Below the pieces are notes generated by a model that did not search any database, was not told the DNA's origin, and worked only from the letters and a program-made list of their open reading frames with translations. Both the position numbers and the translations under genes were made by a program. Below, in pieces: positions 12,382 through 14,239 of a DNA stretch of 14,380 bases. Positions within the stretch are counted from its first letter, which is position 1, and each line of letters begins with the position of its first letter. This DNA comes from Bacteroidales bacterium. GTDB lineage: Bacteria > Bacteroidota > Bacteroidia > Bacteroidales > P3. The stretch covers positions 1 to 14,380 of the forward strand of contig JAFWOP010000141.1 of NCBI GenBank assembly GCA_017545365.1, read 5' to 3'.

Positions 12382-12387
12382 CTTCAA

Positions 12388-12513
12388 CAGCCTTGAAGGC
12401 TGAATCGCAATCCCCACACTGCGGAAGCTGTTAGCGTCCGCAGTGTGGGTTCTTGAAATGCCCTCCTATCCAGCGTCCCGGAAGGACGCGACAATGCGAA
12501 AGATTGGCAAAAA
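12388..12513 (+). repeat. Three-hairpin structured repeat, copy 1 (downstream of eno)
   Basis: Three consecutive stem-loops: CAGCCT/AGGCTG (12388-12402); CCCACACTGCGGA/TCCGCAGTGTGGG (12413-12449), a perfect 13-bp stem; and GCGTCC/GGACGC (12473-12489). The conserved tail GACAATGCGAAAGATTGG then an A-run follows. The same arrangement recurs at 14121-14239 in the same orientation, with compensating changes in the stems. It starts 6 bp after the eno stop and would be transcribed as part of the eno 3' region. None of the hairpins has a T-run. It may be a REP-like element or RNA element; I do not recognise a named family. Confidence 0.75.
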
Positions 12514-12584
12514 TCAGTCATGCGTTGTACGAGAGCGAACATAAACAGCTTCTAAAGTCGGCCGAATGACCGATTAAGGTTAAC

Positions 12585-12621
12585 AAAGGGGGCAGGCCGT
12601 CAGCGTCTGCCCCCTTTTTTT
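12585..12621 (+). terminator. Intrinsic terminator downstream of eno
   Basis: AAAGGGGGCAG (12585-12595) pairs perfectly with CTGCCCCCTTT (from 12607) around an 11-nt loop, and a run of seven Ts (12615-12621) follows. It is very GC-rich and should stop transcription from eno after the structured repeat, insulating the sigma-factor unit downstream. The 382-bp stretch 12382-12763 holds only the repeat, this terminator and the sigma-gene upstream signals; I see no gene in it. Confidence 0.9.
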
Positions 12622-12638
12622 ATCCCCTGTCTGATGCC

Positions 12639-12733
12639 TTGCACCCAGTACCTTACGCCTTGCCGGCAAAAAAAATTCATACCCCATGTCCTTTTTTGCA
12701 CAAAACTTGCACCTTATATTATAAGTAATTTCG
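12639..12733 (+). promoter_or_regulatory. Candidate promoter/operator region of the sigma-factor unit
   Basis: TTGCAC occurs at 12639-12644, 12696-12701 and 12707-12712, the last two exactly 11 bp apart (one helical turn). The first and third extend to the shared octamer CTTGCACC. GCAAAAAA (12666-12673) is inverted at 12692-12699. TTTG (12695-12698) resembles the Bacteroidetes -33 element, and TATATTAT (12715-12722) or TAATTTCG (12726-12733) partly match the -7 consensus TAnnTTTG, but neither spacing is ideal. The repeats could instead be the recognition site of the downstream ECF sigma factor or an operator. The assignment is tentative. Confidence 0.35.
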
Positions 12734-12758
12734 GCCTTACGACAGTACAAACACTGAT

Positions 12759-12770
12759 GAGTCATGACTC
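12759..12770. repeat. 12-bp perfect palindrome over the sigma-factor start codon
   Basis: GAGTCATGACTC is its own reverse complement and contains the ATG at 12764-12766. A loop-free palindrome is a poor RNA hairpin but a good form for a dimeric DNA-binding protein. Codons 1-2 only partly constrain it. Possibly chance. Confidence 0.35.
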
Positions 12771-13261
12771 CAACAGAACGAGAACAAGAATTCCGACAGA
12801 TGGTGGAAAAGCATAAAGACATGCTGTGGCATATCTGTACCGACTACACCCTCAATGCGGCTTGGGAGCGGGACGACTGCTTCCAAGAAATCCTTATCTC
12901 CCTCTGGCAAAGCTTCGACTCCTTGCGCAACAGCGACTGCGAACGGCGGTACGTCTACCAAGTGGCCACCAACACCATGCTCATGCTCCGCCGCAAGAAG
13001 TCCAACCTCCCCAACCTCCCGATGATACAAGAAAACGAAGCCGACGCCGTTAGCGACTTCAACCTGCACGAGGACTACCGTTACTTTATGGAGCTGGTCG
13101 AGCAGCTGGGCGACACCAACAGCCTCATTGTCCGCCGTACCCTCGACGGCTACACCTTCCAGGAAACCGCCGTGGTCATGGACATGACCACCACTGCCGT
13201 ATCCCACAGATATTCACGTGCCATCAAAAAAATAAAACAACAATATGAAAACTCCGTTTGA
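12764..13261 (+). CDS. ECF-type (sigma-70 family) RNA polymerase sigma factor
   Basis: A 165-residue sigma factor with only regions 2 and 4, the extracytoplasmic-function layout, which redirects RNA polymerase to a small regulon on an envelope or external cue. Region 2 covers about 8-80, with the core-binding helix DDCFQEILISLWQSF (37-51) and the -10-binding RRYVYQVATNTMLMLRRKK (61-79). Region 4 covers about 104-158, with a helix-turn-helix in GYTFQETAVVMDMTTTAVSH (129-148) and a basic end (IKKIKQQ). The ATG lies inside a 12-bp palindrome. It overlaps the next gene by 17 bp, typical of sigma/anti-sigma pairs. I cannot name the ECF group or its target. Confidence 0.9.
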   Translation: MTPTEREQEFRQMVEKHKDMLWHICTDYTLNAAWERDDCFQEILISLWQSFDSLRNSDCERRYVYQVATNTMLMLRRKKSNLPNLPMIQENEADAVSDFNLHEDYRYFMELVEQLGDTNSLIVRRTLDGYTFQETAVVMDMTTTAVSHRYSRAIKKIKQQYENSV

Positions 13262-13583
13262 AACCCTGTTGGCCCGCCGTGCCGAAGCCATGCAGAACGC
13301 CCGTTGTCCTTACAGTCCCGAGGAGTTGGACAGCCTTATTAGCCGTGCCGTCCGACAGGCCACCTCTGCGCGTTCCTTGCCCTTCACACCCACCTACCGC
13401 TCTTGGCCTCGCCGTTTCCTGCCCGCCGCCAGTGTCGCCACGCTGCTGTTTGTAGCCACCTATACCCTTGCGCCACCCTCTTCCGATCCCCCTCTTCGTC
13501 CCATGGCCTCCTATGACTATAACCAAACACTCGACAGCGTTGCCATGGTCCTCAATACTCTAAGCAAAACTTATCTGGCATGA
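13245..13583 (+). CDS. Small single-pass membrane protein, candidate anti-sigma factor
   Basis: A 112-residue protein with a charged N-terminal cytosolic part (about 1-57, including PYSPEELDSLISRAV), one hydrophobic segment (about 58-75, LPAASVATLLFVATYTL) and a short external tail of about 37 residues. I do not recognise a named family. It lacks the HxxxCxxC motif of zinc-type anti-sigma factors. Its place directly after an ECF sigma gene with a 17-bp overlap, and its topology, suggest it binds or restrains the sigma factor at the membrane; this is inference from context. Its stop overlaps the next start by four bases (ATGA), so all three genes are probably translationally coupled. Confidence 0.75.
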   Translation: MKTPFETLLARRAEAMQNARCPYSPEELDSLISRAVRQATSARSLPFTPTYRSWPRRFLPAASVATLLFVATYTLAPPSSDPPLRPMASYDYNQTLDSVAMVLNTLSKTYLA

Positions 13584-14089
13584 AAAAAACAGACCTATTA
13601 GTGTGGCTCTTACTGTGTGGCTTGGCTGTAGCTGCGGCCTTTGCGCTCAAGCAATGTCATCGCACGCTGCCCGAAAGCCAGTGCAGCGAGGTCTACCGCC
13701 GCTATGCCCATGTCGAAGGGGTGGAGGCCGCCTTTGTGAAAGGCTTCCCCATCAACGACACCCTAGGGGTCGACGTCACCCTCCTCCGCGCCACCGACAG
13801 CGCGGGCTGGGCTTTTATGATTGATGCGTTTGGTCTGCCAACCGAAGTTCTCGAAACCGTTAAAGAATCGTCAGAGTTTAACATCTGGGTGTGGCGGTCA
13901 CCCAAGAATGAACCCGAAAAAAGAATTATTCTTTCATCTCAAAATAAAGATAGCATACTCGAAATAGTCGTTATCTCTTTCGCAGAACATCAGATAGGCA
14001 TCTTCCACTCAGGCAGTAAAGAGGAAGAAGATGCAATTATGAATTACAATTTAGACAGAACAACAAACAAAATAACCTCAAATCTTTAA
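13580..14089 (+). CDS. Membrane-anchored hypothetical protein, possibly DUF4252-like
   Basis: A 169-residue protein with an N-terminal hydrophobic segment (about 6-23, LLVWLLLCGLAVAAAFAL) and C26 just after it, so it is anchored or exported; the context CHRT does not form a clear lipobox. The rest is soluble and probably periplasmic. The run SEVYRRYAHVEGVEAAFV and the late IILSSQNKDSILEIVVISF recall DUF4252 proteins, which often accompany ECF sigma genes in Bacteroidetes, but this is a memory-based resemblance only. Start and coupling: ATGA overlap with the preceding gene. Composition changes from GC-rich to AT-rich at about base 13805. Function unknown; perhaps a sensor or output of the sigma system. 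Confidence 0.7.
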   Translation: MKKTDLLVWLLLCGLAVAAAFALKQCHRTLPESQCSEVYRRYAHVEGVEAAFVKGFPINDTLGVDVTLLRATDSAGWAFMIDAFGLPTEVLETVKESSEFNIWVWRSPKNEPEKRIILSSQNKDSILEIVVISFAEHQIGIFHSGSKEEEDAIMNYNLDRTTNKITSNL

Positions 14090-14120
14090 GGCTCTAGTTT
14101 GATAAAAGACTGATTTTTAA

Positions 14121-14239
14121 CAGCATCGAAGATGCTGAATTTCAATAACCCCACACAAGGAACGCAGTGTGGGGTCAACGAAAACCCTACTACTCAGCGT
14201 CCCGCAGGGACGCGACAATGGGAAAGATTGGAAAAAAAT
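14121..14239 (+). repeat. Three-hairpin structured repeat, copy 2 (next to IS end)
   Basis: Same order and orientation as the copy after eno. Hairpin 1 is CAGCATC/GATGCTG with loop GAA (14121-14137); hairpin 2 is CCCCACAC/GTGTGGGG (14149-14174); hairpin 3 is GCGTCCC/GGGACGC with loop GCA (14197-14213). The tail GACAATGGGAAAGATTGG and an A-run follow. Hairpin 2 is shortened here because the left arm has lost the TGCG tip. It begins 31 bp after the preceding gene's stop. No other terminator is visible for that gene, so the hairpins may define the transcript's 3' end. The tail meets the IS end at about 14240. Confidence 0.75.

Follow-up and report, generated by a model that had tools for sequence, protein, structure and literature searches.

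Among described systems, those closest to the element treated here are the repetitive extragenic palindromes (REPs) of the class-2 TnpA-REP enzymes (REP-associated tyrosine transposases, RAYTs), with the bacterial interspersed mosaic elements (BIMEs) and REP doublets forming hairpins (REPINs): palindromes dispersed through intergenic DNA in many copies per genome, lying beside a Y1/HUH transposase gene and occurring as head-to-head pairs. The survey of Quentin et al. 2018 (PMC6006769) keyed its automatic REP search to a GT[AG]G foot and, in its passages on TnpA-Y1 subclass 1.2, records REPs as 'no' and terminal secondary structures as generally absent. Here we describe a repeat of three hairpins (H1, H2 and H3, in fixed order) found twice in a 14,380-nucleotide stretch of contig JAFWOP010000141.1 from a Bacteroidales bacterium (assembly GCA_017545365.1), hereafter the window. 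Because its copies are dispersed, multi-copy palindromes and also flank Y1 transposase genes, the repeat is, in the broad sense, REP-like. Its type-A (IS1595) ends and target duplications, together with the occurrence of the same plan beside Y1 genes, lead us to conclude that each window copy is very probably a worn nested element: a REP-like three-hairpin module inside the ends of an IS1595-family miniature inverted-repeat transposable element (MITE).

The differences from class-2 REPs are several. In the 64 copies aligned below the GT[AG]G foot is absent from H3 on either strand (0/64) and from H1 on the minus strand (0/64); the unit has three hairpins and C-GNA-G loops; and the transposases carry a Y..Q..HH motif where those of class 2 carry Y---NP. 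Four of the proteins scored only 18.6–28.7 against the NF047646 (REP_Tyr_transpos) profile, whose cut-off is 80. The missing foot and these low scores rule out a canonical GTAG REP of a RAYT. A preliminary description of this DNA had suggested a REP- or BIME-like element moved by a tyrosine transposase: this holds in that the module flanks Y1 genes, but the canonical RAYT form does not apply, and the IS1595 MITE ends had gone unseen.

Other comparisons are also partial. CGTC-tagged REPs (Di Nocera et al. 2013, PMC3733652) likewise combine a palindrome with an unpaired tag, and TGTC, present at the H3 foot on the minus strand in 37 of the 64 copies, is a stated tag variant. As characterized in that account, however, their first two stem pairs are A-T, their loops are of 4–5, and they are said to lack a transposase; here the first and second pairs are G-C and C-G in all 64 copies and the loops are of three, and on stem pairs and loop size this assignment was rejected. 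IS200/IS605 elements (subclass 1.1) share a Y1 enzyme, terminal hairpins and inverted or paired ends, and solved relatives of our Y1 proteins are found at low similarity (2fyx, E 2.4e-6). Unlike in IS200/IS605, module copies here far outnumber Y1 genes, and the two subclass-1.1 genes among the fetched loci have no C-GNA-G hairpins. Like IS1595-family MITEs, the element shares its ends with a 1118-bp IS1595-family unit and has 8-bp target duplications, but where such MITEs hold IS1595 sequence it holds a Y1-type REP-like module. Among the open-access PubMed Central papers searched, none reported hairpins for subclass 1.2. The pairing of a repeat with a Y1 transposase is already known in kind; this variant appears to be new.

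The three-hairpin module

The features of the two copies, all on the plus strand, are as follows.

12383..12537, +, copy 1: worn type-A (IS1595) MITE with REP-like module; right end present, left end missing
12388..12402, +, copy 1 hairpin H1: stem CAGCCT/AGGCTG, loop TGA
12413..12449, +, copy 1 hairpin H2: 13 bp
12473..12489, +, copy 1 hairpin H3: 6 bp, closing C-G pair lost through one substitution
12490..12507, +, copy 1 tail: GACAATGCGAAAGATTGG
12509..12537, +, copy 1 right terminal repeat: AAAAATCAGTC ... GAGCG
12588..12621, +, probable eno terminator, 3' of the element: G+C-rich hairpin followed by a T run (read by eye)
14090..14239, +, copy 2: worn type-A MITE with REP-like module; keeps a left end, right end unrecognizable
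14090..14118, +, copy 2 left terminal repeat: GGCTCT ... GACTGATTTTT
14121..14137, +, copy 2 hairpin H1: 7 bp, loop GAA closed by C-G
14148..14175, +, copy 2 hairpin H2: 9 bp, counting the outer A-T
14197..14213, +, copy 2 hairpin H3: 7 bp, loop GCA closed by C-G
14214..14231, +, copy 2 tail: GACAATGGGAAAGATTGG

The tail GACAATGNGAAAGATTGG is present at two places in the window and no more, against 0.06 expected even if three mismatches are allowed. The copies align with 81% identity over 75 nt, and DNA folding recovers all three hairpins in both (z scores of −7.5 for copy 1 and −6.4 for copy 2; none of 200 shuffles matched the stability of either). The two copies at 12388–12513 and 14121–14239 set out in the preliminary description are therefore real, and its stem sequences and lengths were correct. 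Two of its details change. The H3 of copy 1, described as a distinct 6-bp hairpin, does have a 6-bp stem; it is nevertheless a single substitution, one that breaks the closing C-G pair, away from the family form CCCGGAGGG, and so looks decayed rather than alternative. In addition, the element exceeds the limits first drawn around the hairpins and tail: copy 1 extends to a right transposon end at 12537 and copy 2 starts from a left end at 14090. With one recognizable type-A end apiece, the two copies look, from their sequence, like worn non-autonomous mobile elements.

Copies are not confined to the window. The tail pattern matched one contig of an uncultured Bacteroidales metagenome-assembled genome (MAG; L001, genome G001) and had no match in viral contigs, on which ground a link to phage was dropped. 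BLASTN with copy 2 returned 22 matches in G001 and a match in at least 65 of 190 genomes of the family, a lower bound given that about four candidates were scored per genome. An alignment of 64 copies (A1) was assembled from the two window copies and 62 of 72 unique copies found by BLAST.

Over 22 base pairs, 97.7% of cells in A1 hold standard pairs, compared with 90.2% in shuffled alignments; the figure is raised by the omission of the ten copies whose H1 or H3 is truncated or replaced and slightly lowered by MAFFT, which misplaces parts of window copy 1. Both sides have changed in 11 of the 22 pairs, double-changed cells number 95 as against 21 in shuffles, and none of 500 shuffles reached the observed value on any covariation measure, although kinship alone can outdo shuffles without structure (rarely so, according to the tool's note, on the two measures that count pairs and types). 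Controls in which the partner strand was slid gave 32–51% paired. The earlier proposal that pairing is kept despite divergence of the stems, which two copies cannot suffice to establish, is confirmed by the 64. The loops are conserved too: G-N-A is found in 59 of 64 copies at H1 and in 59 at H3, closed by C-G in 61 and 57, respectively. DNA minihairpins with GNA triloops are reported to be extraordinarily stable (Yoshizawa et al. 1997, as cited in PMC6479982).

Strong covariation is also what would be expected of a functional RNA at the 3' ends of transcripts, acting in stability, processing or termination, with selection falling on the RNA. Departures from standard pairing on the plus strand are more often of the G.U type than of the A.C type (44 versus 14, with 25 of the 44 from one pair), which fits single-stranded RNA or DNA. 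This alternative is taken up again with the neighboring genes.

Several irregular forms were seen. Additional stems, such as GGGTCGCGACCGAAAGGGCGCAACCC, are nested toward the apex of H2 in five loci of G026 (L246, L248, L249, L250, L251) and one of G046 (L255), and for this reason H2 seems to accept insertions. In three G046 loci (L252, L253, L256) the H3 loop is interrupted by an inserted, hairpin-bearing stretch. Modules also form tandem arrays (L055 in G071:C15; L054, L062 and L063 in G057; L056 in G083:C54; L079, L080 and L081), spaced at ~143 bp in G057 and ~254 bp in G071, some of them around Y1 genes. These arrays could stem from amplification by the Y1 enzyme or from repeat slippage.

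Y1 transposase genes beside the module

Y1_Tnp genes (PF01797) are present in 9 of 12 element-bearing genomes and in 85 of the 190 family genomes. Inspection of their flanks by eye showed that several carry the same three-hairpin plan on both sides, inverted, with H3 closest to the gene. A descriptor of the plan, two C-GNA-G hairpins around a third stem, finds it even where all stems differ: at L084 it is built from the unrelated stems GCCCCGTAGGGGC, CCGTGGGT/ACCCACGG and GCCCCGTAGGGGC.

The fetched loci encode 86 distinct proteins, 83 with Y..Q..HH, one with a variant of it (L190) and two of subclass 1.1. Among the 84 Y1 proteins, 55 combine the Y..Q..HH motif (55/55) with a WQ motif, both of which characterize subclass 1.2; the remaining 29 form the 'MSY' clade, which goes with window-type modules and has Y..Q..HH in 28, DH[IV]H in 28 and WQ in none, for which reason we call it subclass-1.2-like only. 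These motifs place the transposases in, or close to, subclass 1.2.

Hairpins are oriented with respect to these genes. In the 79 of 84 genes with 250 nt on both sides (five lie too near a contig end), C-GNA-G hairpins oriented to the gene occur upstream of 47 and downstream of 49, on both sides of 36 and on neither side of 19. Altogether 60 of the 79 have at least one, made up of 38 among 50 WQ-type genes and 22 among 29 of the MSY type, whereas subclass 1.2 is reported to be generally without such structures. Hairpins on the wrong strand occur upstream of 8 and downstream of 18. Counted singly, 179 hairpins point toward the gene and 47 away, where shuffles lead one to expect 0.94; since arrays make hairpins non-independent, the gene counts are the fairer measure. 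None of 30 stretches of 300 nt after eno has a C-GNA-G hairpin on either strand, and the entire eno control (112.5 kb over both strands) has seven with a stem of 5 and none with a stem of 6. At the level of the class, a relative of the Y1 protein of L074 was found in 180 of 345 genomes; flanks could be read at 29 of the best 30 loci, and counted without regard to kinship among the genomes, 19 of these have a hairpin toward the gene and 9 have one on the opposite strand.

In the same class-level search, some Y1 genes (L218, L221, L238, L244 and others) were seen to be flanked by tandem single hairpins, for example GTCCCGTAGGGAC-GACAT, at intervals of 50–57 nt, an arrangement simpler than H1-H2-H3.

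A covariance model (R1) was built from A1, whose training loci are, by motif search, without a Y1 gene of this kind. Applied to 100 loci it gave 124 matches at E≤0.01. These fell on 43 of 64 Y1 loci, which is not a random rate because the loci were partly chosen for the window-type clade (the 64 are from 85 fetched, and 19 of them, within L161–L200, were picked mostly on that basis). No match fell on the controls (0/30 eno, 0/4 IS1595 and 0/2 subclass-1.1 loci). Matches of at least 40 bits are concentrated at MSY-type loci (21 of 29, compared with 1 of 34 others), and the sequence of the module therefore follows the transposase clade. R1 found the module in at least 100 of the 190 family genomes (at most 20 places scored in each) and in 51 of 295 genomes sampled from the order, G001 among them, so that the two copies first described belong to a widespread family. 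Several of the order-level matches are head-to-head pairs with H3 inside, as though the gene were missing. Across the 190 genomes, 71 have both module and Y1 gene, 14 the gene only, 29 the module only and 76 neither, an agreement uncorrected for shared ancestry.

It is conceivable that the compensating changes owe nothing to selection: the element would be mobile all the same, and hairpin-templated repair would make its pairing self-maintaining. H1 and H3 are near-perfect palindromes, and templated correction of such palindromes is known to occur. Such repair does not, however, predict constant C-GNA-G loops, an orientation toward the Y1 gene or the way other Y1 clades repeat the plan with stems that are unrelated; we regard it as unlikely to be the explanation, although it may contribute.

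IS1595-type ends and the proposed nested element

Copies in relatives have inverted ends of ~29 bp; in G001 the ends, which reach beyond what the preliminary description gave, are GGCTCTTATGCTATATTTGACTGATTTTT and, inverted on the other side, CGCTCTAATATAACATATGACTGATTTTT. A two-end rule applied to the fetched loci delimited 24 elements, 23 of them with both flanks available. The flanks carry 8-bp target duplications, identical in 13 of 23, matching at 7 or more of 8 positions in 18 and at 6 or more in 19; when flanks were shuffled between elements, 3.9 of 46 rows (each element being listed on both strands) reached 6 of 8. A search of 12 genomes for IS1595 transposase genes (PF12762) turned them up in 3. 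G123 has two (L096, L097), each within a 1118-bp unit bounded by matches to the element's left and right ends, including the difference between these (TTTGAT versus TACAA); the protein belongs to the IS1595 family (NF033547, E 2.3e-54). Type-A ends border 32 of 74 module copies on both sides and 15 on a single side; the other 27 have none. Fourteen further stretches, picked for wide or irregular end spacing, were read by eye: each contains the module, whole or in part, and extra H2 stems, H3 insertions or deletions occur in some.

Module copies were also seen in at least two further end contexts, TTGATTATCCGCATACAACCG-like and ...GAACCCACC... (L054, L062, L070; L056, L067, L073), which are perhaps other types of MITE.

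Type-A ends with 8-bp duplications, and the existence of element-rich genomes in which no Y1 gene was found, would also suit a plain IS1595 MITE in which the inner hairpins are unconnected with any Y1 enzyme and resemble the flanks of Y1 genes by coincidence. Yet the three-hairpin plan recurs on both sides of Y1 genes, R1 matches Y1 loci and no control locus, more than a third of module copies (27/74) have no type-A end, and at L198 the hairpin nearest the Y1 gene, GCGTCCCGAAGGGACGC followed by GACAAT, is of window type. We therefore give the plain MITE very little credence.

How a module nested in a MITE might arise can be outlined. Its inner part is the H1-H2-H3 unit with C-GNA-G loops at H1 and H3, inverted copies of which bracket Y1/HUH genes, H3 inward, and which also occurs as gene-less head-to-head pairs and tandem arrays. 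The Y1 enzyme probably recognizes a folded single strand bearing the GNA loops; binding to the folded strand would account for stems that vary only in compensating pairs. Known relatives, in the account of PMC8266576, bind hairpins strand-specifically through the loop and irregularities in the stem. The enzyme would cut near the hairpins, so that modules were moved or amplified, and a module that landed within IS1595 ends would then be copied as MITE cargo, probably by a DDE transposase of the IS1595 family. From sequence comparison, then, we infer binding, cleavage and mobilization by the Y1 enzyme, mobilization in trans by the IS1595 enzyme, the order of nesting and any present activity.

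A number of observations weigh against the nested, Y1-associated element. On the Y1 side, the predicted DNA folding energies of the two H3 strands are equal (both −7.3 kcal/mol) and fail to separate them, so that the argument from GNA loops rests on conservation; 19 of the 79 genes have no oriented hairpin within 300 nt, and 18 have one on the opposite strand downstream; the R1 rate at Y1 loci reflects partly chosen loci, and the genome-level agreement is uncorrected for shared ancestry. Furthermore, six genomes with at least ten scored modules, including G001 and G026, which are closely related to the window, had no Y1 gene found; these are MAGs. On the IS1595 side, one of the 12 genomes searched yielded an IS1595 gene with matching ends, no target duplication was seen at either of the two G123 units, the ends at the IS1595 genes of G017 and G038 are not of this type, and the copies without any type-A end have already been noted.

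Beyond the window, we lean modestly toward the view that Y1 transposases of, or near, subclass 1.2 constitute a separate REP-associated lineage across the Bacteroidia, whose substrate would be one-strand C-GNA-G minihairpins (a fixed three-hairpin unit in the window clade) that also spread within IS1595 MITEs. On the same reading, units that live inside IS1595 MITEs would make up one repeat family dispersed by two unrelated transposases. HUH transposases surveyed as without associated hairpins would thereby gain a candidate DNA substrate, and their role could be tested with short oligonucleotides. The elements would be REP-like but tagless, and missed by searches keyed to GTAG; they would offer an example of one mobile repeat carried within another kind of transposon, and would account for abundant structured intergenic repeats in uncultured Bacteroidales that might be mistaken for RNA genes or elements of 3' untranslated regions (3'-UTRs).

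Neighboring genes and sites in relatives

Both window copies follow a stop codon: H1 of copy 1 begins 6 nt past that of eno, and copy 2, counted from its transposon end, directly abuts the TAA of an open reading frame (ORF) at 13580–14089. This feature, pointed out in the preliminary description, suits a 3'-end RNA but is not general. Crude ORF calling around 74 copies left 53 with a called gene on both sides (17 had short flanks and 4 no gene): in 19 the genes are co-directional with the element, in 15 convergent, in 12 divergent, and in 7 both run against it. The 5'-side gene runs with the element in 34 of 53 and against it in 19; 14 copies overlap some ORF called in this way. The occurrence of all arrangements, the want of any Rfam match at gathering score in the window and the failure of R1 to find the module at any of the 30 eno loci of relatives all speak against a transcript 3'-end function, which also leaves the oriented Y1 pairing and the target duplications unexplained. 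We consider such a function most improbable, and neither the 3'-UTR stability element nor the uncharacterized RNA family that had been put forward finds support as a general explanation.

The first run of genes in the window is made up of what we take, from their translations, to be ribosomal-protein genes. It is followed by eno (Enolase domains by Pfam), a sigma-70-like gene and two ORFs at 13245–14089, 3' of the sigma-factor gene, that have no Pfam match; from its position, the first of the two may encode an anti-sigma factor. Homologues of these two ORFs were seen in G046 and G123.

In its eno DNA the window is closest to G001 (92%, over 449 bases only) and G046 (91%). G046 and G123 share the downstream sigma-factor gene, and in both a terminator-like hairpin follows eno where the element is absent. 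The ORF preceding copy 2 has homologues in G046, G001, G123 and G026, after none of which BLASTN found copy 2. By eye, a divergent module lies ~730 nt 3' of eno in G001 (G001:C152, L130 ~1100–1210), at another place than copy 1. A hairpin similar to the probable eno terminator of the window is found directly 3' of eno in two further loci (L098, L114).

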